Origin: a virus
Reading direction: 5' to 3' (one strand)
DNA: 22,452 bases
IMG/VR virus record: IMGVR_UViG_3300042549_003501
Location: 1 to 22,452 of that record
Part shown: positions 1 to 18,245 of the stretch, in pieces
Layout of the letters: every line of letters begins with the position of its first letter
How positions within the stretch are numbered: position 1 is the stretch's first letter
Position numbers and translations under genes: made by a program
The notes under the pieces: generated by a model
Database searches by the model: none
Told to the model about the DNA's origin: nothing
The model's input: only the letters and a program-made list of their open reading frames with translations

Positions 1-248
1 TTACCAATGATTGGGAACGTAGAAAGAAAGAGCACGTTAAAACGAAGGGACAGTTTATCAAAGGCTTTGTGAAAAAGGTTTCTACAGGAGATGATGCGTT
101 GTTATGGGAAAATACTATCAAGAAAACAATGCATTGCGGCATAGTAGATTCAATAAAATGTAGAGATGGATGGACAGAAACGATTAGCCCGGAACTACTA
201 CACAAAATAGTAGATGAAACCTTCACTCAAATATATGGGGATTCCTAG
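1..248 (+). CDS. 3' end of an unknown plus-strand gene (partial)
   Basis: An open frame of about 81 codons runs in from the left window edge (first whole codon at position 3) and stops at TAG 246-248. There is no start codon in the window, so this is the C-terminal part of a longer protein. The visible part is polar and charged, with a run of K/R/E near its beginning (WERRKKEHVKTKGQF) and an ending QIYGDS. I recognise no domain. It converges on the zinc protease gene, and their 3' ends overlap by 26 bases. The absence of stops over 82 codons in AT-rich DNA and the normal amino-acid mix favour a real gene, but a chance frame cannot be excluded. Confidence 0.5.
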   Translation, partial: TNDWERRKKEHVKTKGQFIKGFVKKVSTGDDALLWENTIKKTMHCGIVDSIKCRDGWTETISPELLHKIVDETFTQIYGDS

Positions 249-747
249 CGCCGTAAATTTTTATCATTTTTCCAGCCATTATATCTGCCATAGCTTCAAT
301 GGGTGAACCAGGGTAACTTGAATTGGGTTTTATCATATCAAGTTCGTGTTGTCTTACGTGTACGAGTTCGTGAAAAACCGTTCTTAAAAGGTCCACTAAG
401 TTACGATTTTTAGCATAGACCCAAATTTTACCACTGCCGGGAACATGTCCACCGGTATGATGATTGCCTTGCGCTTCATCTGTGTCCATGCTTAGTTCAA
501 TTGCAGGTATATCTTTTATTCCAAACTTTTTACAAATCCATTCAACTGCTTTTGCTATTTCAGCAGCTTTGTTATCATCAATTTCTTCATCCAAGCTTTG
601 GATTGCTTTTTTAGCTACATTTCTTTCTTTTTTGGCATCTTTTACTAATTTGTCAAGAACACTGTATCTATGTTTATCTAAGGTAGGTAATCCATATTCT
701 GGATTTTCAGTGATTAAATTTTCTGTTAAAAACTCTTTAGCTCTCAT
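223..747 (-). CDS. Zinc metalloprotease (HExxH) with capsid-targeting-like N-terminus
   Basis: 174 aa. The HExxH zinc site is at residues 126-130 (HELVH) inside a hydrophobic helix, followed by SPIEAMADIMAGK (148-160). Its Glu151 is a plausible third zinc ligand, as in gluzincins. A charged helix-rich region (about 30-70) precedes the catalytic part. The first 15 residues contain two copies of a hydrophobic-x-T/I-E-N motif (EFLTEN, LITEN). They resemble the cleaved capsid-targeting peptide of T4 internal proteins, whose consensus begins MKTYQEFIAEA. The ATG at 745-747 has an AAGG 6-7 bases upstream. The substrate is unknown. It could be a protease packaged in the head and released into the host, or simply an intracellular peptidase. 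Zincin assignment is firm; packaging is inference. Confidence 0.85.
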   Translation of the reverse strand: MRAKEFLTENLITENPEYGLPTLDKHRYSVLDKLVKDAKKERNVAKKAIQSLDEEIDDNKAAEIAKAVEWICKKFGIKDIPAIELSMDTDEAQGNHHTGGHVPGSGKIWVYAKNRNLVDLLRTVFHELVHVRQHELDMIKPNSSYPGSPIEAMADIMAGKMIKIYGARNPHIFE

Positions 748-844
748 GATATGCCTTATAGTTGCTCACTTTAGTATGTGGTAGCGAGTCACAAACTAGG
801 CAGCAGCCGCGCACCATAACCCCAACGGTCCTAGGGTTAATTCT
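748..844. other. Intergenic spacer, locally GC-rich
   Basis: 97 bases between two minus-strand genes. They are clearly richer in G+C than the surroundings around 800-835. A 5-bp AACCC/GGGTT pairing with an 11-base loop lies at 818-838, but there is no T-run after it on either strand, so it is not a convincing terminator. A 26-codon minus-strand frame starts at 817 but has no visible ribosome site. No RNA gene is recognised. Confidence 0.4.
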
Positions 845-1033
845 TTATTTCATTTCTTTAATAGTACCAATTACAGCATCAGTAATGCCATATTGTTGTT
901 TCATTAATTGTCTTGCCATAAATAAATTTTGTGCTGTTACAGTAACATCCATATTGCCGGTATAGCCAGGTTGTTTTACAAACACTCTAGCTATATAAAC
1001 TTTGTATGGTTGTACTACATCAGCAACTTTCAT
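845..1033 (-). CDS. Small conserved-looking phage protein, unknown
   Basis: 62 aa, predicted soluble, with an alternating beta-like first half (VYIARVFVK, MDVTVTAQN) and a helical second half (FMARQLMKQQYGI). The composition fits a small alpha/beta domain. The ATG lies two bases after the stop of the 126-aa gene upstream (TAATTATG arrangement). There is no clear Shine-Dalgarno sequence, so expression is probably by translational coupling. No family is recognised. It begins MKVADVV and lacks the E-F-x-T-E peptide found in several neighbours. Confidence 0.7.
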   Translation of the reverse strand: MKVADVVQPYKVYIARVFVKQPGYTGNMDVTVTAQNLFMARQLMKQQYGITDAVIGTIKEMK

Positions 1034-1035
1034 AA

Positions 1036-1416
1036 TTAATTATAGTAAGTCATGCCGCCAGTGCGAGAACCAGCCATTCCGTCATATGTACTCTTTTGAG
1101 CCTTACCATATTTACCGGATACTGAATCTTTTACGGCAGCAACAAAACCATCAATGCTTGAAGCAGCATCAGCAGACATTTGCTGTTTGTCTTTTACTGA
1201 ACCATATGCTGCCAAGAATATTTCAATAGCCTTTAATGGAAGTTTTTTCTGATCTCCATTTTCAAAATTGATTACTTTATTGCCGTCAAAATCTTGGGCT
1301 TTTTCTAACTGAGCTATAATGTTTTGTACATTAGATTGAGGTGAGTCAAAATCATCTTCTTCACCGTCTATAGCAAACGGATCGTATGCTTCGTTTACAA
1401 TTTCTTGAATTTTCAT
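1036..1416 (-). CDS. Unknown late protein with internal-head-protein-like N-terminus
   Basis: 126 aa. It begins MKIQEIVNEA, which lines up with the T4 internal-protein targeting peptide (MKTYQEFIAEA), with a hydrophobic-x-Glu site at VNE. An acidic stretch (about 15-30) is followed by a helical middle, and the C-terminus is Gly/Ser/Tyr-rich (MAGSRTGGMTYYN). A ribosome site AAGGAAT lies close upstream of the ATG, and a CATAAATA late-type promoter lies about 25 bases upstream. This gives it its own short leader, independent of the dps gene whose stop codon overlaps that promoter. Function is unknown. A packaged internal head protein is the best guess. Confidence 0.75.
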   Translation of the reverse strand: MKIQEIVNEAYDPFAIDGEEDDFDSPQSNVQNIIAQLEKAQDFDGNKVINFENGDQKKLPLKAIEIFLAAYGSVKDKQQMSADAASSIDGFVAAVKDSVSGKYGKAQKSTYDGMAGSRTGGMTYYN

Positions 1417-1443
1417 ATCAGTAATTCCTTGTTAATGATAATG

Positions 1444-1451
1444 TATTTATG
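1444..1451 (-). promoter_or_regulatory. Late-type promoter box (CATAAATA)
   Basis: On the minus strand CATAAATA matches 7 of 8 bases of the T4 late consensus TATAAATA. It overlaps the dps stop codon and would start transcription some 15-20 bases before the ATG of the 126-aa gene, just upstream of its AAGGAAT ribosome site. Confidence 0.5.
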
Positions 1452-1890
1452 CTCTATCTTTTTTTAAAGTACTACGCAACATCCAGCCATGCTTTTCATG
1501 AGCATCTAGTCTTGTTGCTAAAAAGTCCATAATACCTTGTTTGTTTTCTTGTTCAGCACTAGCAAAGCAAGTGTTTAAAAGTTCTATAAGTTTTTGGTTG
1601 TCTTGTGTGAGTTCGGCTATCATTAATTGGGCGCGAGGAATCATTAGCTGATCTTCTATTATACACAGTTCATGTAGTCTTGTAAAGCTTCCTGGGGTAT
1701 AACTACCCAAAACTCTGATATATTCTGCTATTTGGTCAATAGAGTTATCAAACACATCTTCATATATTTTCCCAAAGAACTTGTGATATTGGGGAAAGTC
1801 GGGCCCTTCAACACACCAATGAAACTGTTGTGTTTTGATAGCAAAGCCATAACAGCTTGCTAATAATACTTTTAAGTCGTCTGCTAACAT
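1447..1890 (-). CDS. dps: Dps-like ferritin-family protein
   Basis: 147 aa, the usual size of the Dps/mini-ferritin fold. The family core is visible: QFHW (His24), G-P-x-F, His36, then D52-x-x-x-E56 in SIDQIAEYIRVLG. This corresponds to the inter-subunit ferroxidase ligands (E. coli Dps His51, His63, Asp78, Glu82), with one residue of extra spacing before Asp52. Position 40 is Gly where E. coli has Asp67. Dps dodecamers oxidise and store iron and protect DNA. Here the protein would guard phage or host DNA from Fenton chemistry. Its start overlaps the 52-aa gene by 7 bases, and it is the last member of the late run that begins at 6818. It lacks the capsid-targeting-like peptide. Confidence 0.88.
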   Translation of the reverse strand: MLADDLKVLLASCYGFAIKTQQFHWCVEGPDFPQYHKFFGKIYEDVFDNSIDQIAEYIRVLGSYTPGSFTRLHELCIIEDQLMIPRAQLMIAELTQDNQKLIELLNTCFASAEQENKQGIMDFLATRLDAHEKHGWMLRSTLKKDRA

Positions 1891-2042
1891 TTATTTTTTA
1901 CCTTATTTGAAATAATTTCATCACTTACTTCTGTTTTCCAAACATTTGGAAATATACCATGTACGAATAACATAAACGCCCAACGCCAAGCTCTTAATAA
2001 ATGCTTGAAATATCCTATGTTACTATCAGTCAAATGACTCAT
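1884..2042 (-). CDS. Small membrane-associated protein with HGIFP motif
   Basis: 52 aa. The ATG (2040-2042) overlaps the stop of the sigma-like gene as TAATG, and the stop TAG (1884-1886) lies 7 bases inside dps. It therefore fills the gap between two real genes with coupled translation on both sides. Residues 10-33 have the pattern YFKHLLRAWRWAFMLFVHG followed by IFP and then V-S-D-E. This resembles small marine bacterial and phage proteins with one hydrophobic helix carrying H-x-L, A-W-R and HG-x-FP. I know no function for that family. A single amphipathic or membrane helix is likely (about 15-31). Confidence 0.72.
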   Translation of the reverse strand: MSHLTDSNIGYFKHLLRAWRWAFMLFVHGIFPNVWKTEVSDEIISNKVKNKC

Positions 2043-2731
2043 TATTTCTTCATTTGCTTATTTAATCTAGTAGCTGTTTTAGTCATAGGATTAACGCGCT
2101 TGGTTTTTTTAGTTTTTCTAGCTTGAGCTACTTTTGTTCGTTGTCTTGTTTGTTTCATTTTTGCTGATTTTTTAAGATCAGGTGCTGCTGAGCAATGTGA
2201 AACATCAGGCATCGTTCTGCCTTTTCTTGGACCAGATTCACAACGCCACTTCATAGAAATACTACCTGATTTGGCGTTCTTTTTGAATACTAGTCTATGT
2301 TCTGTTATATAATAGTCTACTAATTCATAGTTAGCTTTTATTAATCTTAAAAGTGCTCGTCTTAACAAAACCTGCACTCTAGATGGAGATATATTCATTT
2401 TTTTAGCTATTTCTGAAAGAGTATTTTCTTCTTGATCAAATAATCCAAATCGTAGTGTTAGCAATAACTTGTCGCGTGACGGCAATTCTGAAACAATTTT
2501 TTCTATTTTATTTTTTAATGAATCATCCATTACAACTTTTTCTAGTTCGGGATCATAGATAAATTCTTGAGGGTTAAAATCACTTATGGTAGATGCCTTA
2601 TCCATAACAGGGTCATCTAATTGCGGCATCGCATAATTTTCGTAATCTTTGCCGTAAGTTTTACCGGTTGGATTATACTTCTTAGCCCTAACGGCATCTG
2701 TCCATTCTGTCACGAATTCTTTTGCTCTCAT
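2042..2731 (-). CDS. Sigma-70 region 4 protein with basic tail and capsid-targeting-like N-terminus
   Basis: 229 aa in three parts. Residues 1-10 (MRAKEFVTEW) resemble the cleaved targeting peptide of T4 internal proteins. Residues 71-132 match sigma-70 region 4. LPSRDKLLLTLRFGL corresponds to the L-x-x-R-E-R-x-V-L-x-x-R-F-G-L signature, followed by TLSEIAKKM and a second helix SPSRVQVLLRRALLRL, the helix-turn-helix that reads the -35 element. Residues 155-229 are a Lys/Arg-rich tail with two Cys (RCESGPRKGR, SHC) that probably binds nucleic acid. Regions 1-3 of sigma are absent, so it cannot melt a promoter alone. It could act like a co-activator or anti-sigma that occupies the beta-flap, as T4 gp33 does. 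It lies in a late run, 3 bases after the 146-aa gene. Confidence 0.82.
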   Translation of the reverse strand: MRAKEFVTEWTDAVRAKKYNPTGKTYGKDYENYAMPQLDDPVMDKASTISDFNPQEFIYDPELEKVVMDDSLKNKIEKIVSELPSRDKLLLTLRFGLFDQEENTLSEIAKKMNISPSRVQVLLRRALLRLIKANYELVDYYITEHRLVFKKNAKSGSISMKWRCESGPRKGRTMPDVSHCSAAPDLKKSAKMKQTRQRTKVAQARKTKKTKRVNPMTKTATRLNKQMKK

Positions 2732-2734
2732 TTT

Positions 2735-3175
2735 TTATCTACTCCGCACTAAGTAATATATGACTGAACTGCTATCTTCATCTCTTTTAAGTTTGTACCC
2801 TAACTTGTCGGCATATTTTTCAACCATTCTGTCATACAATTTAACTCTACCAGTTGGAGTTTTCGTGCCTGGATCACCTGTCTCTTTGTCTGCTCCAAAC
2901 GTAATCTCATGTGGCTGCACTTTTTGAATAAATTCTATAATAACTTTGAGAACAGTGCTGAATATCTTATAAGCATCACCCTCGTTTGTTACATCATATG
3001 ACCTGTTTTTAGAGAATTCAACTACGTAACTAGCCCCTTCACCTTCAATCTTGTCAAATGTTATGTGTAAGCGACTTCCGTCAGGTAACTTAACTTCAAC
3101 CTCATAGTCGCCACCATACTCTGAGCGTCCTAATTCTGCTGAATAGGGTGAGTCAAATACTTCAAATATTCTCAT
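2735..3175 (-). CDS. Conserved-type phage protein, unknown
   Basis: 146 aa, predicted alpha+beta. It starts MRIFEVFDSPYSAE, then has beta strands rich in polar residues (DYEVEVKLPDGSRLHITF), the segment YDVTNEGDAYKIFSTVLKVI (about 60-79), PHEITFGADKE and a C-terminal half GRVKLYDRMVEKYADKLGYKLKR. The layout suggests a compact single domain, but I cannot name it. Its start loosely recalls the targeting peptides of the neighbours (M-R-x-F-E-x-F) without the T-E site. The ATG overlaps the stop of the 318-aa gene as ATGA, so it is translationally coupled. Confidence 0.75.
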   Translation of the reverse strand: MRIFEVFDSPYSAELGRSEYGGDYEVEVKLPDGSRLHITFDKIEGEGASYVVEFSKNRSYDVTNEGDAYKIFSTVLKVIIEFIQKVQPHEITFGADKETGDPGTKTPTGRVKLYDRMVEKYADKLGYKLKRDEDSSSVIYYLVRSR

Positions 3176-4128
3176 TTTTTATCTCTTGTACTTTTAGTAG
3201 CTACATTCTTTGCCTTACCTTGTCTTTCAGGATTTGGATCTTGTCTACGTTTTCTGCTAGCGGCACTTGCTCTCTTTTTTTTACCTAGTGCGTGTGCTTT
3301 CTTTTGTGGTAAGCATTTTGGCTTACCTTCGCTTTCACTGCCTCTAGCACAAGCACCTCTGATCTTACCATCAGGACCAAATCTAACCCACTTTTCTTTG
3401 AACCATTTGCGTAAGTCTTCTTCTAGTTGTTCTTCACTTACACTTTCTTTAGGTACACAGTTGGGAACCATTTTACCACTTTTCTTTTTCATACCCACTT
3501 GTTTGTGTGTATCCCAACATGCTTCTTCTAAATCCACGCCTTCATCAGTTTTTTTATTAGCATTGATATATTTTCTGTACACAGCCGCAGCTTCAGATTT
3601 TCCTGCTGCTTTAGCTCTTTGTTCCATAGCAACAGCAGCTTGTATTTTGTGAGCATGGCTACGACCGCTATTACGAATTTTTGAAACACTTGCTTTAGCA
3701 TCTGCTTCAGTAGCAAATTTTAAACCAGTAATAGTACCTTTAGGATTCTCGTCTGTATATAAATCACTATGTTTTTTACTATTAGCAGGCTGTCCCGGCT
3801 TTCTTGCTATTCTAGAATTATCTTCTTCAATGCCTTCGTTTGATTTTTTGTTTTTGACACAGTTTGGATATGTTTTTCCAAACATTTTTTTGTTGCCTTC
3901 TTTGTGATAACCCTTCCAACAGGCTTCATCTATATTGTGTCGTGAATGATCTCCGTGCGTTTCACACATGCTACAATCAGGACAAGTCATTTCCATGACA
4001 ACGCCTTCATTGTGCTTCTTCTTACCGGCACAATGAGCTTTTTGGCTAAAGCCTTTGGGATGACTACAGTTGATAGAGCGTTTATATTTTTCGCTCCAAG
4101 CTTCTGTTATAAACTCACCAGCTCTCAT
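3172..4128 (-). CDS. Modular basic Cys-rich protein with capsid-targeting-like N-terminus
   Basis: 318 aa, strongly basic and built from small units. The N-terminus MRAGEFITEA is almost superposable on the T4 targeting peptide (E-F-I-x-E-A). Units are: 11-38, an S-x-N-C-S-x-P-K-G-F-S-Q-K-A-H-C motif; 49-59, CPDCSMCETHG, a possible zinc knuckle; 69-92 and 202-226, two copies of E-A-C-W ... G-K ... P-N-C-V; 135-190, a helical unit with RSHAHKIQAAVAMEQRA; 238-318, a Lys/Arg-rich unit containing GPDGKIRGACARGSE and DPNPERQGKAKN. Short acidic linkers (SNEGIEED, TDEGVDLEEA) separate them. The composition points to nucleic-acid contact inside the head. Start and stop overlap neighbouring genes by 4 bases (ATGA). 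Function is unknown. Confidence 0.8.
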   Translation of the reverse strand: MRAGEFITEAWSEKYKRSINCSHPKGFSQKAHCAGKKKHNEGVVMEMTCPDCSMCETHGDHSRHNIDEACWKGYHKEGNKKMFGKTYPNCVKNKKSNEGIEEDNSRIARKPGQPANSKKHSDLYTDENPKGTITGLKFATEADAKASVSKIRNSGRSHAHKIQAAVAMEQRAKAAGKSEAAAVYRKYINANKKTDEGVDLEEACWDTHKQVGMKKKSGKMVPNCVPKESVSEEQLEEDLRKWFKEKWVRFGPDGKIRGACARGSESEGKPKCLPQKKAHALGKKKRASAASRKRRQDPNPERQGKAKNVATKSTRDKK

Positions 4129-6818
4129 TTGCTTTTATTACCCCAATTACTTGCACCCACTTTGCGGCACTTTACTAACGCACCTGAAGCATACGCACTT
4201 GGCCAAACTTTGTAGCGCGATTTTACTTTATGATAGCAAGCATCTTTATTGCCTTCTTCGTTTAGTTCGCTTTCTGCTACTAGCTTACCGCCGCATTTGG
4301 GGCACTTATCAGTATTTTCTGTAACTAATGTTGCTTTGTAGTTTTTATTAGGTAAACGAATAAGCTGATATGAATTTCCTTTTAAATCTTTTCGTTGCAT
4401 CATTTTCGGGCTGTGACTTGCCGCATCATACGCAACTTCTGCACCAAAATGTTTTTGTAGTGATGCTGAATCGTGCTCTTGATCAGTATTTTCTGTTACA
4501 CTTTCGTTTTTAGGTTCCCAGTATCTTCCTTTACCCAACATATTATCTTGGTAACCATACCACTTACCTGATTTACTTTGTTTTAATCCTGCACGACTAG
4601 CATCAGTTTCTTTTCCTGCCGGTACATTGTAAAAAAACATACCTTTAGGTTTGTTATAAGTTTTGCGTGTTTCGTGACCTAACTCATGTTCCATTTCTCT
4701 ACGCTTGAAGTCGCGTTTGCTCATTGAACCCCAATCATTTGTTTGTTCATTTTGAAGTCCTCGCATAATAGAACTTTCATACTTAGGTACAATAGGTTTA
4801 TCATCTGCGCCCATTACCTCGCCTTTACCTAATGACAAACGAGTTTTATGATTTTCTATTCTTCTTTCTATTTCTTGAATCTTAGCTTGATCATTTTGCT
4901 GTGTAGCCATTTGATGATACTTGATAAGTGTTTGTAGTTGAGGACTATTGCTATACACTTGTTGTGCTTGCTGCTGTCCTATTCCCCAAAGAGAAGCTAA
5001 CAGTGCTGTACCTGCTAATACTTTTCCTATTACTCCTTCGGACATTTCTCTGTCCATCATGGTTAATGTATCATAGTCAATATAAAAGTCTGTATCTGGA
5101 TCATATGCTAAGCCAGCTTTTGGATCGTAGTAATATACTTTACCGTTTCTTGCTCTGAATGGACCTTCTAATCCCTCACGCTCTTGATATTTTTCACGAT
5201 CAATGTTTGGTAGTATGCGATATCCTTCCGCCATACCATTTTGTTGTGTATTCTTCTTTTGAAATTTTGCTTGATTGATAGCTTGAAACTTATCATTTAA
5301 TTCTTTATATTCTTGTTTCATGGCAGGCGTACTCTTGCCACTCCTGGATGCAGCTACAATTTCATCTCTTCTTTGTGTAATGTCACTTTCTAATTGTGCT
5401 AATTTATCATCACTCATTTTCACATATGGAGCAATACTTGCCCTGTATTGTTCTAAGCGATCTTTCCTTGATTGCTCTTCATGTTTTAGTCCATCTCTGT
5501 ATCCAGCTGTATAATCATTTGAGCCTGGGCCATACTTTGAACTGGCTCTGGGATCCGAACTGCCTCTCTTACCATCGCTGAATCCAGCTTGATATGCTGA
5601 TGATTTATTTTCTTCACCTTCTGCCATACCTTGACCCATTTGTTTATGTTCCAAATATTCACGAATAGTATTCAAGTAATCGTTTGCTTTGATAATCTTT
5701 TCTTGAACCCAACCTTCAATACCCACTTCTTCAGGAATGTCTTTGATCAGTTCGTATACTTGTTTAGCGTTTTTAGCAGATTGAAAAAGATCACTTAAAG
5801 CCATTTCAACTTCGTGATCAGTTCTGTCTTTTGCTTTTGGAATAAATCCTTGTTTGTATTTCTTACCTTGTCCAGGAACAATGATAATGTCTTCTTCATC
5901 AAGTTTGGCTTCTTTCATACTTTCTTTAAACATATCATTTAGATTTACTTCTCGTGTACCCGACACTTCAACATCCCCTTCGTTTTGATCTAGCCATTTT
6001 TCAAATGCTTCTTGACTTTTAAATGTTTTCTTCCACTTATTGCTATTTACGCCACGAACTCCATATGCTTCTATACCAACTTTAGTTTCTTCTTTGGCTT
6101 CTTCAATTTTTTTAGACATTTTTTGTTTTAACGCTTGAATCTTTTTTTGATATAATTTACATTTTTCATCGTCGCCTGCACGATTTGCTGCTAATGCTAA
6201 TTCTTCATACTTTGATATTTGTTTTTTATCATCTGTAGATGCGCTTTCTGACACGCCTTGATCTTTGTTTGCTAATTTGTCTAACTTGTAATAGCGGTCA
6301 AAATGCTTCTTAGAGGTTTTAGTGTCGCCCTTCATACTAGCATCTTGTGACTTGGCTATTTCTTGCCCAATACGAGTTTGTATATCTTTACCTGTAGCCA
6401 ACCGCTTTATGTCTTTTACTAATCCTTCCGCCACACCTTGCTTATCACCAGTACCTTTGCAGGTTGGGCATTTTACTTTTTCAGCACCTTGTTTATTGTC
6501 GGCAAACAACTTGCTACCTAACTTATACATACTCTTACGACCATGACAAGTGGTGCAATTGGTATCTTGGTGCCTGACAGTTTTGCCTGGCATATGATCT
6601 ACATCATGTGGGAAGCCTTCCGCCACACCTTGGTCTTGAGATTCTTTAACTGATTTACTGTTAGCAAACTTTTCATTAGTCTTTTTACCAGTTAATAAGT
6701 TGCCGCCTTTTTCGTTAGGATAAATTCCTTTACCGCGTGTTTGTGTTTTGCCTACAGGCGTAGCAACAGTAGCTATAGCCCCTGAAGTAGTTGATTCTGT
6801 AAAATGAGTGCTTTTCAT
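4125..6818 (-). CDS. Long modular protein with repeated GVAEG-type linkers (possible head polyprotein)
   Basis: The frame opens at ATG 6830, but I prefer the ATG at 6816-6818. It follows a GGAT, leaves a short leader after the late promoter, and gives an N-terminus MKSTHFTES like the targeting peptides of neighbours (897-898 aa). Numbered from 6830, eight short motifs of the form hydrophobic-x-E-[GSN] punctuate the chain: 68-72, 132-136, 192-196, 401-405, 532-536, 596-600, 777-781 and 835-839. Between them lie small modules. These are a DnaJ-type Cys motif pair (CTTCHG, CPTCKGTG, 92-128), helical units, a DHEVEMALSDLF...IPEEVG unit (338-396), a Tyr/Asp-rich unit with a hydrophobic helix (565-618), MSKRDFKRREMEHELGHE (703-720), a CPKCGGK knuckle and a C-terminal KVWPSAYASGALVKCRKVG unit. 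No enzyme is recognised. Confidence 0.82.
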   Translation of the reverse strand: MKSTHFTESTTSGAIATVATPVGKTQTRGKGIYPNEKGGNLLTGKKTNEKFANSKSVKESQDQGVAEGFPHDVDHMPGKTVRHQDTNCTTCHGRKSMYKLGSKLFADNKQGAEKVKCPTCKGTGDKQGVAEGLVKDIKRLATGKDIQTRIGQEIAKSQDASMKGDTKTSKKHFDRYYKLDKLANKDQGVSESASTDDKKQISKYEELALAANRAGDDEKCKLYQKKIQALKQKMSKKIEEAKEETKVGIEAYGVRGVNSNKWKKTFKSQEAFEKWLDQNEGDVEVSGTREVNLNDMFKESMKEAKLDEEDIIIVPGQGKKYKQGFIPKAKDRTDHEVEMALSDLFQSAKNAKQVYELIKDIPEEVGIEGWVQEKIIKANDYLNTIREYLEHKQMGQGMAEGEENKSSAYQAGFSDGKRGSSDPRASSKYGPGSNDYTAGYRDGLKHEEQSRKDRLEQYRASIAPYVKMSDDKLAQLESDITQRRDEIVAASRSGKSTPAMKQEYKELNDKFQAINQAKFQKKNTQQNGMAEGYRILPNIDREKYQEREGLEGPFRARNGKVYYYDPKAGLAYDPDTDFYIDYDTLTMMDREMSEGVIGKVLAGTALLASLWGIGQQQAQQVYSNSPQLQTLIKYHQMATQQNDQAKIQEIERRIENHKTRLSLGKGEVMGADDKPIVPKYESSIMRGLQNEQTNDWGSMSKRDFKRREMEHELGHETRKTYNKPKGMFFYNVPAGKETDASRAGLKQSKSGKWYGYQDNMLGKGRYWEPKNESVTENTDQEHDSASLQKHFGAEVAYDAASHSPKMMQRKDLKGNSYQLIRLPNKNYKATLVTENTDKCPKCGGKLVAESELNEEGNKDACYHKVKSRYKVWPSAYASGALVKCRKVGASNWGNKSK

Positions 6819-6842
6819 AATGAAATCCATAAGTGATATGTA

Positions 6843-8607: not shown

Positions 8608-9522
8608 TTATTTTTCTGAGATATAATCAGTAGATTCGGAAATATCTATTTCTCTACCTTTAGCTATTGGACGATTGCCCTGCTTTTCTTTGAAGTTTTC
8701 ATATTGAATTAAAGCTTTTAACATATTCTCAACTACACCTGCTTCGTAAAGAGAATGATAAAGACTGCTGTATCTTTTTTCTTTGATCATTTCTACCATG
8801 CTAGAAAACTTTCTTGTTAAGTTACTTAGCAATGATTTTTCATCCCAAGTACCCATACCACCATCTGGTACTATTAAATGACCTTGTTCTGGATCGTTGA
8901 CGAGAGTTGCTTCTTCAACACCTTCTTCATTTACTTGATCACCAATAATACCAGCATCTAACATCTTTACTGCTACATCAGCCAAGTTTTTGTTTTGTTG
9001 TGTTCTAGGGTATAAACTCATTACCATTGCTAATTTTTGTCTTTCGTTTAAGTTAGGCCAAGCGTTTCTTATTTCTGACGCACTTGTTATACCGGGACCA
9101 AACTCAATAGTTGGTAAGTATTCTATATAAGCATGTTTATTAAAAGATTCTAAGTTGTTGGGGTCATATGGTTGAAAGTATGAAGGTGATCCATCTTTTT
9201 TAGTGCCACCGGGCTTGGGCTGTTCATTTCTGTCTTTTTCACTACGAACGAATATTAACACATCACTTTCAGGATCATACTTTTGAGTAATTTCTTCAGC
9301 TTTGAATGGACTTTTTACTTGTACAAATTGATTGGGATTAACTCCAGCTAGTTGTGCTAGTTTCTTTTTAATTTCAAAAGGGAACGGACGAGTTTTAGTA
9401 TCGTTAGTAGCTGCTAAGTATATATCAGCATCTGGAAACTTTTCTTGTGCGGCTTTATACAGTGAATAATGTCCTGCATGATAAGGGTGATAGCCACCAG
9501 GTAATACTACAATCTTTTTCAT
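8608..9522 (-). CDS. Nucleotidyltransferase (HxGH superfamily) with extra C-terminal module
   Basis: 304 aa. Residues 1-160 form a cytidylyltransferase-like Rossmann domain: PGGYHPYHAGHYSLY, with HAGH at 15-18 as the HxGH nucleotide-binding site, and GITSASEIRNAW (144-155), the counterpart of the ISSTxIR signature. Such enzymes join a nucleoside monophosphate from NTP to a phosphorylated substrate, as in NAD, CoA or CDP-alcohol synthesis. The substrate here is unknown. After about 195 a linker NEEGVEEATL leads to a module with VPDGGMGTWDEKSLLSNLTRKF and a helical end that is not part of the catalytic fold. The linker resembles those of the 898-aa protein. AGGAACT precedes the ATG. Confidence 0.85.
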   Translation of the reverse strand: MKKIVVLPGGYHPYHAGHYSLYKAAQEKFPDADIYLAATNDTKTRPFPFEIKKKLAQLAGVNPNQFVQVKSPFKAEEITQKYDPESDVLIFVRSEKDRNEQPKPGGTKKDGSPSYFQPYDPNNLESFNKHAYIEYLPTIEFGPGITSASEIRNAWPNLNERQKLAMVMSLYPRTQQNKNLADVAVKMLDAGIIGDQVNEEGVEEATLVNDPEQGHLIVPDGGMGTWDEKSLLSNLTRKFSSMVEMIKEKRYSSLYHSLYEAGVVENMLKALIQYENFKEKQGNRPIAKGREIDISESTDYISEK

Positions 9523-10102: not shown

Positions 10103-10786
10103 CTATTCGGGGCGTTTTTCCAATTTATAACTTTTTCTCAAACATTCACCAAAAAGTAGGTGCATAAGGGTTAACGTCTGTTCATCTTTAAAGTCTATAA
10201 AAGAAGAACTGGGAAGATAGAAAGACTTATGAGTATTACAATGCCTCATCAAGAATAATACTAAACCTCCTGATAACCATACATCACCTTTATCGTGATA
10301 ACTGTAACGAAAAGAGTTTAATGTTGATAACAATTCAGAACTAGCCCTAGTGCTCTTAAAATAAACACGATATTTATACTCAGGCTCTTTAGCAAAATAC
10401 ATTATCGCTGATGGCGGCGTCAAAGCTTGCGTTATTTCTATGTTGTTATCAATTTGATACAACTCTTTTAATATATCTATATTAGAAGTATATAAGGATA
10501 AAGATAAATGCTCATGTAAAAAAGTAACTTCTTTATTACATGAATAGTTATTATAAAATACTATTAGCTTTTCACATACATCTAAGTTTAGTTCAGTTAA
10601 CTTAGGTACTGGTGCCTTATACCAAGCAGTTGAATTATTTTTTTGTGCCATGCTGATCTTTCGTTTAAAATGATCCAAGTCCCTAGTGTTAGAAACAAAT
10701 CTAACACCAAGGTACTTTAAAATCACACGATAGCAAAACTTATTATAAAAAAGCTTATTGCGGTTAGTCTGAGTTATGTTCACCAC
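10103..10786 (-). CDS. Unknown 227-aa protein
   Basis: 227 aa, rich in Tyr, Phe, Asn and Lys. The N-terminal basic part is NKLFYNKFCYRVILKYLGVRF. The middle contains TFLHEHLSLSLYTSNIDILKELY and PPSAIMYFAKEPEYKYRVYFKS. The end is SFYLPSSSFIDFKDEQTLTLMHLLFG when read through 193-213. It has no catalytic motif that I can name; I have the impression of a family found in marine T4-like phages without known function. The start is a double GTG (10784-10786 and 10781-10783). GAGG is better spaced for the second. The gene begins 23 bases inside the end of the clpA-like gene. Confidence 0.72.
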   Translation of the reverse strand: MVNITQTNRNKLFYNKFCYRVILKYLGVRFVSNTRDLDHFKRKISMAQKNNSTAWYKAPVPKLTELNLDVCEKLIVFYNNYSCNKEVTFLHEHLSLSLYTSNIDILKELYQIDNNIEITQALTPPSAIMYFAKEPEYKYRVYFKSTRASSELLSTLNSFRYSYHDKGDVWLSGGLVLFLMRHCNTHKSFYLPSSSFIDFKDEQTLTLMHLLFGECLRKSYKLEKRPE

Positions 10787-13046
10787 TAACCTCTATAATA
10801 CCTTGATCATTTACCTTTGCTGTTACTTTGTTAGTAACATTAAAAACAATTTCATCATTGTCCATTACAGCCATGATGTTTGAATCTTTAATGCGTTCAA
10901 ACAAAATCTTTTTACTCAAGGGTACTCTGATCATTTCATCAATCTTACGAGCTAGGGGTCTTGCACCCATTTTGCTATCATAACCCTTATCAGCTAGATA
11001 TTCAATTACCGGCTCACTTAAGTTAAGTGTAATGTTATGTTTTTCCAACAAGCTCTTTTTAACATCTTCAGTAAACTTGATAACAATCTTTTTAATAGAA
11101 AGCATATCAAGCTTTTTAAACTTGCAAATCATGTCTAATCTGTTTCTAAACTCTGGCTTAAAGAATTCTTTAAGTGCTTTATCATCTTCACCTGTTTTTT
11201 CTTGTGTGCCAAATCCAATAGCATTCTTTTCACTGTCAGCCGAACCCAAATTAGAAGTTAGGATAATAATAGCATTCTTACACGAAACTTTCTTACCGTT
11301 AGATCCAGTAACTGTACCTTCGTCAAGAATCTGCAAAAAGATATTAAAGATATCCGGATGTGCTTTTTCTACTTCGTCAAACAACATAATAGCATGTGGA
11401 TTCTTGCTTAGATCAGAGATAAGTCTTCCTCCCTGAACTTGACTATCACCAAAACCAACATAGCCTGGAGGAGGACCAATCAGTGATGATACGGTGTGAC
11501 GTTCACTATATTCACTCATATCATATTTGAGTAGAGGCATATCTAGATTTTTGCTTAAAAGTTTAGCTAATTCTGTTTTACCAGTACCCGTAGGGCCTAG
11601 GAACAAGAAACTTGCGACTGGTTTAGTTTCATTACCAATACCAGCAAATGACACATACACTCGTTCTAAAACTTTATCAACCGTTTCATCTTGACCATAA
11701 AGCTTAGATTTAACATTTACATCAAGATTATTAATACGTTCATAGTTATTGTCTGATAACTTATCAGCAGGAACACCCGTATATTTTTCTACTTGTTCGT
11801 GAATAAGTTCTTTTGTAATTAGTGCTTCTTTATTACCCAAGACTCGTTGCTTAGCACACGCGGCGTCTAACAAATCAATTGCTTTATCTGGGTTTTTGCG
11901 ATCATGAATGTATCTGTCAGCAGAATCAACTGCGGCGTTAATAGCTTCTTCAGTAATTTTTACTGTGTGAAAGTCATTTAGTCGTTCAGATAATCCTTTA
12001 AGAATTCTAATAGTAGAGTCATGAGAAGGCTCATCAATTGAAATTTTAAAGAATCTACGCATTAATGCACGGTCTTTTTCAAATGACTCGTAAAACTCTT
12101 CCCAAGTAGTAGAAGCAATTACTTTCAATGTGCCTTTAGTAATTGCCGGTTTGATCATGTTAGCAAAGTCAACAGATCCGTTGTTTGATGAACCACCTGC
12201 TTGCATGGTATGTGCTTCGTCAATAAACAAAATACAATTTTTCTTTGTGTTAAGTGCTTCAAGAACTGCTTTTACTTTTTCTTCAAAGTCACCGCGGTAT
12301 TTAGAACCAGCTAACAAACTACTAATTTCAAGTGAGTATAGTTCATATCCTTCCAAGAATTCAGGAACTTCTCCGTTAACGATTGCGTTAGCAATACCTT
12401 CAGCAATCGCGGTTTTGCCTACGCCCGGATCTCCTACCATAAGTGCGTTAGCTTTAAATCGCTTGGCCAACACAGTAATTATATCATCAATTTCTTTTGA
12501 TCTGCCAATAACTGGTTCTAATTTACCCTGTTTAGCAAGTTGAGTGAGGTTAGTAGTATACTCTTCTAAGACTTCATCTGCCTGGTTAGAAGTCAGTGAT
12601 GTTGTGTAATCACTACCCTTATAATTCTTTTGCCAATACTGAGCAAACTCATTTCTTGATACGCCATATTTTAACAAGAAATAATGGGCATGTGAGTTAT
12701 TTTCTGATGTTATTGAAAGATACAAATCAATAGTAGTTACTTGTTTTCTACCAGTAAATAATACTTGGGTGACACTACGGTTCATTGCTCTTTCTAGTGT
12801 GTTGGTTCGTTTTGGAACAACAGAAGAACCAGTGGACTCAATAGAATGTAAGCCATCAAGATAAGCACCAACTTCATCGCTCATCAAACTAGCATCTACG
12901 CCAAATAGAGTTAGGCATTTTTTGAAGGGAGGATGTGTAATTAGTGCTAACAAAAGATGTTCTAGTGTCACATACTCGTGTTTGCGTGATTTGGCATGGT
13001 CAATTGCTTGTTCAATGATACTTTCAATTTCGGGACTGGTATTAAT
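10764..13046 (-). CDS. clpA: ClpA-type AAA+ unfoldase, probable AUU start
   Basis: About 760 aa, the length of bacterial ClpA. From the AUU at 13046 it has a Clp N-domain (ending in HEYVTLEHLLLALI), AAA+ module 1 (Walker A GDPGVGKT about 205-212, Walker B LFIDEAH, Arg finger region) and module 2 (Walker A GPTGTGKT about 484-491, Walker B LFDEVEKAHPD, sensor 2 GARPLAR). No ClpB middle domain is present. IGF at about 610-612 matches the ClpA/ClpX loop that docks on ClpP. No ATG, GTG or TTG exists in frame between the upstream stop and 12971. A GTG at 12969-12971 would cut into the N-domain, whereas AAAAGGAG sits 7 bases before ATT 13044-13046. It probably unfolds proteins for host ClpP. It follows dnaJ in the same frame. 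Confidence 0.9.
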   Translation of the reverse strand: MNTSPEIESIIEQAIDHAKSRKHEYVTLEHLLLALITHPPFKKCLTLFGVDASLMSDEVGAYLDGLHSIESTGSSVVPKRTNTLERAMNRSVTQVLFTGRKQVTTIDLYLSITSENNSHAHYFLLKYGVSRNEFAQYWQKNYKGSDYTTSLTSNQADEVLEEYTTNLTQLAKQGKLEPVIGRSKEIDDIITVLAKRFKANALMVGDPGVGKTAIAEGIANAIVNGEVPEFLEGYELYSLEISSLLAGSKYRGDFEEKVKAVLEALNTKKNCILFIDEAHTMQAGGSSNNGSVDFANMIKPAITKGTLKVIASTTWEEFYESFEKDRALMRRFFKISIDEPSHDSTIRILKGLSERLNDFHTVKITEEAINAAVDSADRYIHDRKNPDKAIDLLDAACAKQRVLGNKEALITKELIHEQVEKYTGVPADKLSDNNYERINNLDVNVKSKLYGQDETVDKVLERVYVSFAGIGNETKPVASFLFLGPTGTGKTELAKLLSKNLDMPLLKYDMSEYSERHTVSSLIGPPPGYVGFGDSQVQGGRLISDLSKNPHAIMLFDEVEKAHPDIFNIFLQILDEGTVTGSNGKKVSCKNAIIILTSNLGSADSEKNAIGFGTQEKTGEDDKALKEFFKPEFRNRLDMICKFKKLDMLSIKKIVIKFTEDVKKSLLEKHNITLNLSEPVIEYLADKGYDSKMGARPLARKIDEMIRVPLSKKILFERIKDSNIMAVMDNDEIVFNVTNKVTAKVNDQGIIEVSGEHNSD

Positions 13047-13064
13047 GATTATGCTCCTTTTAGT

Positions 13065-13823
13065 TTATTTACTATTACTTAGATGATTATTAATGGAATC
13101 TATTATTTCTTGACTTATGTTATCAGGCATATAGGTTTGTAGCAAGATGATTTGGTCGCCGAAGCCATTATTTTTATTGGGCATACCTGCTTTTGGTATC
13201 TTTAACTGCGTATAAGGTTGTGTTTTAGGAGCTACTTTAACTTCTAGTGTTCGTTGGTCTATTGTTACAAACTTAAACTTTGTTCCAACGATCAAATCTA
13301 ATACAGATATAGAATGATTGGAATATAAATCACTCATCCTTCTATCAAACCTTAAATCAGGTAAAACAACAAACTGCACTAACAGTATTGCGTTTTCAAT
13401 TATGTTATCATATCTGATAGAATCGCCTGTTTCTATTCCGGGAGGAACACTGATGTTTATTACTTTGTTACCAAAAGGGGTAGACAGTTGTAAAACATGT
13501 GATGATCCTTTATACGCATCTACTAACGACACAGTAACTTGAGTTCTAAATGTTTGTTTTTGATTTTGGGGACGTGCTCCAAAAACTTGATTAAAAAAAC
13601 TTTCTGCATCCATGTTATAGATATTATTAGAAAATGGGTTGTCGTATTGTTGTTTTTTTGTAGGATCACTTAAAACATCATAAGCTTCTTGTACTTTTTT
13701 AAACTGGGTATCATCCCCGCCATTACGGTCAGGATGAGTTTTAAACGCCAGGGATTTGTAGGCCTTTTTGATTTCGTCTACTGACGCAGTTTTGGGTATA
13801 TTTAGTATAGAGTAATAGTCCAT
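13065..13823 (-). CDS. dnaJ: DnaJ/CbpA-type co-chaperone without zinc fingers
   Basis: 252 aa. The J domain is at 1-65 with helix II, the HPD loop (30-32) and [22 protein letters not shown] short linker (about 65-90) lacks the Gly/Phe-rich repeats of DnaJ, and no CxxCxGxG zinc repeats are present. The remainder (92-250) matches the double beta-barrel substrate-binding C-terminus ([15 protein letters not shown] in the form [29 protein letters not shown]). This is the CbpA-like layout. It would stimulate host DnaK and feed it chosen substrates. The start follows a sigma-70 promoter by only 5 bases and has no convincing ribosome site, so the message may be leaderless. It is co-transcribed with the clpA-like gene. 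Confidence 0.92.
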
Positions 13824-13828
13824 TTCTT

Positions 13829-13857
13829 ATTATCGCATGAATGCGATTAAAAGTCAA
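13829..13857 (-). promoter_or_regulatory. Sigma-70 promoter with palindromic operator candidate, for dnaJ
   Basis: Minus strand -35 TTGACT (13857-13852), 17-base spacer, -10 GATAAT (13834-13829); each hexamer has one mismatch. A perfect 14-bp inverted repeat TCGCATTCATGCGA (13846-13833) overlaps the -10 element. The dnaJ ATG is only 5 bases beyond the -10, so the transcript would start at or within 1-2 bases of the ATG. Confidence 0.75.
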
Positions 13858-17303: not shown

Positions 17304-17585
17304 TTATCTCTTGATTGCTTCGTATGTTACAATGTGTGCTAGTCTCTCACCCAAATCTTGATCGGATGTAACTATGTATAAACTGGTTTGACTGTCGTGG
17401 TTTTTATCATAACTACGTGTTTCTACTACATGCCCGCCGTCTGCTTTGTACACAGTAAACCTAGTACCGTTAGAGTCAATAGACCCAGAACTATCTTTTA
17501 TCGTTGAAGGCATATCACATTGAGGTTCATATTCTCTTTCAACGTCTCTTAGTCTTTTTCTTATCCATTTAAAAACAAATTTCAT
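17304..17585 (-). CDS. 93-aa phage protein, unknown
   Basis: 93 aa. The basic N-terminus MKFVFKWIRKRLRDVEREYE forms an amphipathic helix. The remainder has a beta pattern (TRFTVYKADGGHVVETRSYD, QTSLYIVTSDQDLGERLAHI) ending in a helix. GGHVVETR and SDQDLGERLAHI look like conserved surface elements. It lies between the co-chaperonin genes and gp44, coupled to the former by TAATG and 3 bases from the latter. No function is recognised. Confidence 0.75.
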   Translation of the reverse strand: MKFVFKWIRKRLRDVEREYEPQCDMPSTIKDSSGSIDSNGTRFTVYKADGGHVVETRSYDKNHDSQTSLYIVTSDQDLGERLAHIVTYEAIKR

Positions 17586-17950
17586 TAAACCACCTTATCA
17601 CTCATGTTATAGTCTTCGACTTTTTCATCGCTTACTAATAGTATATCTTTGTTATCTACTTTGCGAACAATTTGGACGCCTTCATCGTCTTCAATCTTTA
17701 CACCACGAGTCCAACGACCATGTGCGATATAAATCCACTGACCCACTTCTAAGTCTTTTTGTTCAGGACCAATAGCATAGATTCTTGCCCAACGAGGTCT
17801 GATGCCAGAACTTTTCATATCATCGTTTGGAAGAATAAGACCTGCATGACTCAATCTTTCACCAAATTCCATTTGATGAACAACTACGGAATCTTTAAGA
17901 GGTAAAAACTCTTCTACTTGAATAGCATTTGTATTTTTAGCTGTTAACAT
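17585..17950 (-). CDS. Divergent GroES/Cpn10-type co-chaperonin
   Basis: 121 aa from the ATG at 17948-17950. TAAGGATATT just upstream is a ribosome site, and the longer frame to 17983 would begin inside the preceding gene. The Cpn10 pattern is present but diverged: FLPLKDSVVVHQ (strand 1), a GERLSHAGLILPND loop at the mobile-loop position, RWARIYAIGPE, LEVGQWIYIAH and DILLV at the end. T4 uses gp31, a divergent Cpn10, to make host GroEL fold the capsid protein. This gene is a good candidate for the same job. It directly follows a canonical GroES gene, so the phage has two. Confidence 0.78.
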   Translation of the reverse strand: MLTAKNTNAIQVEEFLPLKDSVVVHQMEFGERLSHAGLILPNDDMKSSGIRPRWARIYAIGPEQKDLEVGQWIYIAHGRWTRGVKIEDDEGVQIVRKVDNKDILLVSDEKVEDYNMSDKVV

Positions 17951-17957
17951 AATATCC

Positions 17958-18245
17958 TTACTTAATAATTGCCAAAATTTCATCTTCTTGTAGAATGCGG
18001 TACTCTGTATCTTCTACTTTTACTACTTGACCCGCGCCTTGAACAAAAAGAACTTTGTCACCCTCATTAACTCCGGGTACTACAAAAGTGCCATTTTCTA
18101 AATAAGTTCCGGGACCTACAGCAATTACGATACCTTGATTAGGTTTATCTGCTGCTGAGCCTGCTAAAATAAGACCGCCTGCGCTCTTTTTTATTGTTTC
18201 AACTTCTTTAACTACTATTCTGCCTTGTATTGGTTTAAGTTTCAT
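17958..18245 (-). CDS. groES: GroES-type co-chaperonin (Cpn10)
   Basis: 95 aa, exactly the bacterial GroES size. KPIQGRIVVK (4-13), the mobile loop VETIKKSAGGLILAGSAA (15-32), IAVGPGTYLENG, VNEGDKVLF and EDEILAIIK match E. coli GroES segment by segment, including the hydrophobic tripeptide LIL that inserts into GroEL. It should cap the host GroEL ring. Its similarity to a cellular GroES is much closer than that of the following gene, suggesting a more recent host origin. The start overlaps the preceding gene as ATGA. Confidence 0.93.
   Translation of the reverse strand: MKLKPIQGRIVVKEVETIKKSAGGLILAGSAADKPNQGIVIAVGPGTYLENGTFVVPGVNEGDKVLFVQGAGQVVKVEDTEYRILQEDEILAIIK

Follow-up and report, generated by a model that had tools for sequence, protein, structure and literature searches.

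The DNA analyzed here, referred to as the window, is the entire 22,452-base virus fragment IMGVR_UViG_3300042549_003501 of IMG/VR. At least six mostly unrelated proteins of the window bear a short N-terminal leader that ends in hydrophobic-x-Glu (Table 1). The clamp loader of the window is up to 90% identical to that of IMG/VR contigs, some of which reach 525 kb, and 52% identical to that of the cultured Pseudomonas jumbo phage PA5oct. The relative G001 (G and L numbers are our own handles) keeps most of the tagged cluster, with the gene order preserved.

Table 1. Leader-bearing genes, hydrophobic-x-Glu sites and neighboring genes in the window. A slash follows the Glu of each site.
Feature	Position	Strand	Leader, site or match
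Zincin-type metalloprotease, 174 aa	223..747	-	leader MRAKEFLTE/N, E9 codon 721-723
Second site in the 174-aa zincin	706-708 (codon)	-	LITE14/N
Conserved 62-aa protein, outside the tagged set	845..1033	-	MKVADVVQPYK, without leader Glu
126-aa protein	1036..1416	-	leader MKIQEIVNE/A, E9 codon 1390-1392
Dps/ferritin-like gene, outside the tagged set	1447..1890	-	without leader; Pfam Ferritin E 1.1e-19, PHROG 3636
Sigma-region-4 protein, 229 aa	2042..2731	-	leader MRAKEFVTE/W, E9 codon 2705-2707; then sigma-70 region 4 (aa 81-130), junction, basic C-terminal module
Junction in the 229-aa protein	2300-2302 (codon)	-	ITE144/HRLVFK
146-aa protein	2735..3175	-	short leader MRIFE/VFDSPYS, E5 codon 3161-3163
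Modular protein, 318 aa	3172..4128	-	leader MRAGEFITE/AWSEKYKRSINC, then short Cys-containing basic modules
Internal hydrophobic-x-E sites of the 318-aa protein	within 3172..4128	-	E68, E102, E202, E232, E237
Modular protein, 901 aa	4125..6830	-	start probably codon M5, MKSTHFTE/S
Hydrophobic-x-E sites of the 901-aa protein (21)	within 4125..6830	-	including QGVAE/G (twice), QGVSE/S, QGMAE/G, NGMAE/G, EMSE/G, SVTE/N, LVTE/N, LVAE/S
Nucleotidyltransferase-like protein, 304 aa, without leader	8608..9522	-	junction QVNE/EGVEE/ATL (E199, E204)

A reading of the sequence alone had noted nearly the same peptide at the start of four of these genes, and probably of a fifth. Translation confirmed MRAKEFLTEN, MKIQEIVNEA, MRAKEFVTEW, and MRAGEFITEA at these places, and a hydrophobic-x-Glu is present in each (LTE, VNE, VTE, and ITE). 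The 901-aa frame as translated reads MDFIMKSTHFTES. Since its homologue in G001 begins with MNSKQFTES, MKSTHFTES is likely to be the start. The sequence-only reading overlooked the MRIFE leader of the 146-aa protein, the VAE/G-type repeats within the 901- and 318-aa proteins, and the shuffling of modules at internal putative cleavage sites. Furthermore, it ascribed MKTYQEFIAEA to T4 IPI and Alt as well as to IPIII. This peptide is that of IPIII; T4 IPI begins with MKTFKEFTSTTTPVSTITEA, and T4 Alt begins with MELITE/LFDED.

The pattern M[RK]xxE[FI]x[TN]E, for which the same reading had proposed a search, begins three of the 31 window genes in the gene-caller set, as compared with 0.000 expected from column shuffles. 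The fourth matching gene, 3172-4128, was given a wrong start by the gene caller and hence lies outside this count. Motif counts across relatives were performed with seven near-complete genomes of 230-364 kb. A related form, MRAx[EDQ][FIL][FILVM]xE, begins 2-6 proteins per genome (expected from shuffles, 0.000-0.003). This form followed none of the internal Met residues, of which there are 146 in the window and about 11,800 in the relatives. The leader-bearing proteins form about 24 sequence clusters across genomes, several single matches possibly being due to chance. Thus, the same leader indeed stands on mostly unrelated bodies. In 20 homologues of the zincin, M1 and E9 are invariant and residues 10-50 vary; the approximately 40 residues that follow the leader are variable or are swapped for an unrelated basic stretch. 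The leader is retained in 39 of the 45 untruncated zincin homologues. A late-promoter sequence (TATAAATA) was present upstream of one of 49 leader genes and of few other genes, and this test was uninformative in the lineage.

The zincin and sigma region 4, both named from the sequence alone, are genuine domains. The HExxH motif of 223-747 is invariant in the 20 homologues. In its AlphaFold2 (AF2) model, residues 1-47 have a predicted local distance difference test (pLDDT) score below 50, and the zincin fold begins at residue 46. Fold comparison gave Z scores of 10.4 to Wss1 and 10.3 to the Aquifex protein AQ_1354; Foldseek alone gave no significant match for this model. The sigma-70 region 4 of 2042-2731 matches Pfam PF04545 (E 1.6e-10; 40.7 bits against a cut-off of 24.1), and no sigma region 2 was matched by Pfam in this protein. 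Both domains may act in the host. In L001, an acetyltransferase-like domain stands in place of the sigma part, which is absent in L002 and L089. The HRLVFK module (HRLVFKKNAKSG) always comes directly after ITE or ISE; in L002 and L089, this is the leader's own. Leader-tagged proteins of the relatives include ADP-ribosyltransferase domains (ART-PolyVal), one of which is fused to an acetyltransferase, a GH19 domain, and a kinase-like protein (Kinase-PolyVal, below cut-off). A nucleotidyltransferase, a methyltransferase, and a ParB-like protein were added by eye.

Homologues of the 146-aa protein 2735-3175 occur alone, after an MRATEFITE leader, or within long proteins, and nearly all copies have hydrophobic-x-E/xF at the predicted cleavage point. 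This element is also present in members of the T4 Alt family, and the T4 Alt record annotates a mature protein that begins after six residues. Alt is cut at LITE/LFD where the window protein has E/VFD, and the part behind the window leader may resemble the N-terminal domain of Alt. Among viral models, the predicted fold of 2735-3175 resembled Alt-type enzymes (E 5e-4 to 3e-3); in the PDB, it resembled acetyltransferases with a TM score of about 0.4. Neither HMMER nor single-sequence hhalign detected sequence homology with T4 Alt, and the match to a nine-member Alt profile was weak and below significance. We dropped direct sequence homology and retained solely the likeness in fold and cleavage site. 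Unlike Alt, the window protein has only 146 aa and is without the ADP-ribosyltransferase part; neither Pfam nor PHROGs gave a match to such a domain. However, ADP-ribosyltransferase domains with leaders occur in the relatives of the window, as described above. In two T4-like Vibrio phages, L257 (4515-5435) and L258 (5515-6435), the 146-aa domain follows NLTE/AFD and lies near a gene that is annotated as a prohead protease inhibitor in R10Z.

A network of 201 proteins from the window, its relatives, and related contigs includes the 318- and 901-aa proteins. The modules are common to these proteins and their contexts differ. A given module can stand behind hydrophobic-x-E at the leader and internally: FITE/AWSEKYKRSINC corresponds to QLDE/KWSTKYKDSINC, and EVLLE/NAERPYVCVH corresponds to RVLNE/SAERPYVCVH. 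In relatives, a leader of the 1036-1416 kind precedes an added module (the EVLLE/NAERPYVCVH form). The 318-aa protein matches PHROG 727 (E 2.7e-30), and cyanophage Bellamy has a module homologous to one of its modules, placed after MKSFKQFQE/S. The C-terminal 45-60 aa of the 901-aa protein resemble cyanophage T4-GC119/gp114. The protein 8608-9522 also falls in the network, and G001 has an inserted module at the QVNE/EGVEE/ATL junction of its homologue; the Pfam match to CTP_transf_like is weak (E 0.0018) and under the cut-off. Its assignment as an orthologue of cyanophage T4-GC190, which was found in the S-SM1 virion (Sullivan 2010), was set aside: the window protein matched only an uncultured phage and a phage of Microcystis.

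When all junctions were pooled, 54% were at hydrophobic-x-E as compared with 24% of random positions (z 17.7), a difference inflated by relatedness. Because related sequences are counted repeatedly in it, we did not rely on this statistic and used module-level tests instead. For 15 mobile modules, namely those with at least three unrelated upstream contexts, which were chosen after a weaker result with 68 clusters, the mean junction fraction was 0.54 as compared with 0.24 (4 of 1000 simulations). The Asp and Lys controls were flat. Since the sites join the modules in the 318- and 901-aa proteins, both are probably processed polyproteins. In the literature searched, with subscription journals mostly outside it, we found no account in which gp21-type sites join shuffled modules. 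The gp21-type site as a module joint would be a new element beyond the T4 internal proteins and the polyvalent proteins.

No such enrichment was seen at the junctions of the other shuffled proteins of these genomes, which are for the most part radical-SAM-type arrays. Radical-SAM/SPASM-like proteins with CxxxCxxC, each of about 350-520 aa, form tandem arrays and have exchanged parts (L156-L168, L170-L181, L196-L248; from G009, G002, G005, G008, and G003). Five of the seven relatives encode 10-17 CxxxCxxC proteins, and G001 and G004 encode one each. Signal-peptide-like or Tat-like (SRRGFLRGLGAATLGATALG) stretches occur directly after hydrophobic-x-E in the window (5037-5039), G001, G003, G004, L089, and L094, and one such stretch precedes a GH19 domain in G008. 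Such stretches could be unmasked by cleavage. Although the arrangement catches the eye (EMSE/GVIGKVLAGTALLASLWG in the 901-aa protein, for example), we do not claim it as a feature: it was found for 7 of 13 hydrophobic segments, against a background of 46%, which is no enrichment.

A gp21-family protease (PF03420) and a T4-like gp23 major head protein were detected in all nine related contigs of at least 230 kb that were surveyed. In G001, the head genes encode the portal, a 75-aa protein, a gp67-like acidic protein, gp21, gp22, and gp23, in much the same order as in T4. At the T4 cleavage position (FLTE/A), gp23 has QLLAE/SSAG in G001, immediately ahead of its conserved core, LLSE in G009, and LVE/N in PA5oct. 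In G005, two short open reading frames (13507-13854 and 200850-201236) have a segment of gp23 from beyond the cleavage site (VGVQPMT or LGVQTMT region) fused to other sequence. In six relatives, the conserved protein between portal and gp21 begins with MKLFEMF or MKLLEMF; its PA5oct counterpart, which was detected by mass spectrometry (MS), begins with MKINDIITE/G. Since this core protein bears either leader type depending on the genome, the two types seem interchangeable.

The virion set of PA5oct comprises the proteins marked as identified by electrospray ionization tandem MS (ESI-MS/MS) in its record. Leaders were defined as M[RK]..[DE][FILVM] plus hydrophobic-x-E by residue 11. Five of the 90 detected proteins bear such a leader, as compared with two of the 393 undetected ones (Fisher p 0.003), and one of these two is a 64-aa neighbor of two detected proteins. 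PA5oct gp135, the full-length homologue of 2735-3175, was detected, as was a homologue of the MKSLKQYIAES family. With a broader leader pattern (pattern C), no enrichment was seen among the PA5oct virion proteins (p 0.24). Therefore, our claim is limited to the M[RK]..[DE] leader type. Besides gp331, PA5oct has a second annotated head maturation protease, which was also detected by MS (NC_071039, 180349-181020).

In T4, as described in PMC9026906, cleavage takes place behind L/I-x-E, the initial 10 residues of IPIII are enough for targeting, and the ADP-ribosyltransferase Alt and the anti-restriction protein IPI are packaged with such leaders. The leaders of the window resemble those of IPI-IPIII (MKTYQEFIAE/A in IPIII) in their shortness, basic start, EF core, and L/I-x-E end, in their unrelated bodies, and in the presence of a gp21-type protease, here in the relatives. 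In contrast, the leaders of the window lineage have nine residues, mostly MRAxEF, the cargo is larger and more varied, and the site is repeated internally, joining modules within one chain. Polyvalent proteins of phages and conjugative elements are likewise multi-domain proteins with shuffled effector-type domains that are proposed to enter with the DNA, and for which processing by zincins is also suggested (Iyer et al. 2017; PMC5512222). The relatives match ART-PolyVal and, below the cut-off, Kinase-PolyVal, whereas the window proteins match no Pfam model of polyvalent proteins. Unlike polyvalent proteins, those of this lineage have T4-type leaders and domains separated by gp21-type sites. 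The inner-body and ejection proteins of phiKZ and SPN3US are also head proteins whose propeptides a gp21-like protease cleaves after x-Glu; however, the accounts of them used here describe no short leader common to many unrelated enzymes. Cyanophage T4-GC119/gp114 has Cys-containing basic modules in common with the window, most of them after hydrophobic-x-Glu, but the S-SM1, P-SSM2, and S-B68 versions are without an N-terminal leader. We did not use T4-GC119 as a virion protein: it is annotated so in S-B68 only, and it is hypothetical in the main text of Sullivan 2010.

We consider it quite probable, and the best-supported explanation, that the N-termini in the window are T4-type capsid-targeting leaders, cut after the Glu in the manner of gp21. 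The leader would bring the protein into the core as the prohead assembles, and the gp21-family protease would cut after the Glu of hydrophobic-x-Glu, releasing the cargo within the head. The cargo would then most likely enter the host together with the DNA, like T4 Alt and IPI. Inside the longer proteins of 318 and 901 aa, small modules would be joined by sites for this protease, and phages would swap modules at these sites. The sequence-only reading had proposed a set of head-packaged proteins. The enrichment in PA5oct virions, the detected homologue of 2735-3175, and the protease in the relatives agree with this, and we infer that the window's own proteins are packaged and cut. Entry into the host and host takeover, suggested by analogy with T4, are less certain, and the functions of the individual cargo proteins are suggested by their domains. 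There is, in our judgment, about an even chance that the cargo as a whole is of the processed-polyprotein type: small domains, tagged or concatenated, would be cut in the prohead at gp21-type joints, and these joints would also be the recombination boundaries of a delivered effector set. Some domains would then be host-takeover enzymes, namely the ADP-ribosyltransferase, acetyltransferase, and kinase-like domains of the relatives, and the sigma region 4 and zincin of the window.

Several observations weigh against capsid targeting and gp21-type cutting at these sites. When each of 68 loosely linked module clusters was given one vote, the junction fraction was 0.304 as compared with 0.231 (44 of 500 simulations), a weak result; with a small residue required directly after the site, it was modest (5 of 500 simulations). 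Hydrophobic-x-E is a weak signature, found at about one position in 45, and therefore not every site need be cut. The Dps/ferritin-like gene is without a leader inside the tagged cluster, and so are six of the 45 untruncated zincin homologues. The proposed search for a gp21-type protease, successful in the relatives, gave no match in the window, and no head cassette was found in the translated frames of this 22-kb fragment. Few proteins make up the PA5oct enrichment, and the MS set also includes replication, metabolic, and cytosolic enzymes; therefore, presence in the preparation is no proof of location inside the head.

The leaders and sites might instead be head-assembly signals only, the proteins being core or scaffold that is cut to clear space for the DNA, with little ejected or active in the host. 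The gp22 of these phages, a protein whose degradation is expected, has many such sites and, unlike its neighbors, is not flagged in PA5oct virions; moreover, the 318- and 901-aa proteins consist mainly of short basic modules. However, many leader proteins carry ADP-ribosyltransferase, acetyltransferase, GH19, or zincin domains, for which no scaffold role is expected, and the swapping of cargo between relatives fits effectors better than scaffold. We thus regard this explanation as unlikely. Still less likely is that the zincin of the cluster, and not gp21, processes the modular proteins. It lies in the same cluster, and Iyer et al. suggested such a role for zincins; however, the sites obey the L/I-x-E rule of gp21 and match the site in gp23, the zincin's own leader ends in such a site, and G002 and G003 keep polyproteins although their zincin homologues are leaderless. 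Finally, the N-termini might be a shared helix-plus-acidic start without a processing role, their likeness being due to lineage-specific recombination that copies gene starts. Recombination at gene starts is plausible, since leader genes are often arranged in tandem, their stop and start codons overlapping (3172-4128/4125-6830). However, this explanation is very improbable in view of the Glu, which is invariant even in those zincin homologues where the region behind it is replaced, the same element internally before the same modules, the PA5oct enrichment, and the match to the documented site of T4 Alt.

As for neighboring genes, the Dps/ferritin-like gene is kept in G001, L001, and L002. Clp- and DnaJ-like genes (10764-13823) and two neighboring GroES-like (gp31-type) genes (17585-18245) were identified by eye in the window; in PA5oct, the annotated DnaJ and ClpA genes adjoin each other.

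If the N-termini are T4-type capsid-targeting leaders, the targeting sequence of T4 becomes a readable tag for phage proteins that are likely delivered into hosts. Such a tag would be useful in large uncultured phages, in which little else is known. In addition, gp21-type sites as module joints would offer a concrete mechanism for the processing and evolution of injected multi-domain proteins.

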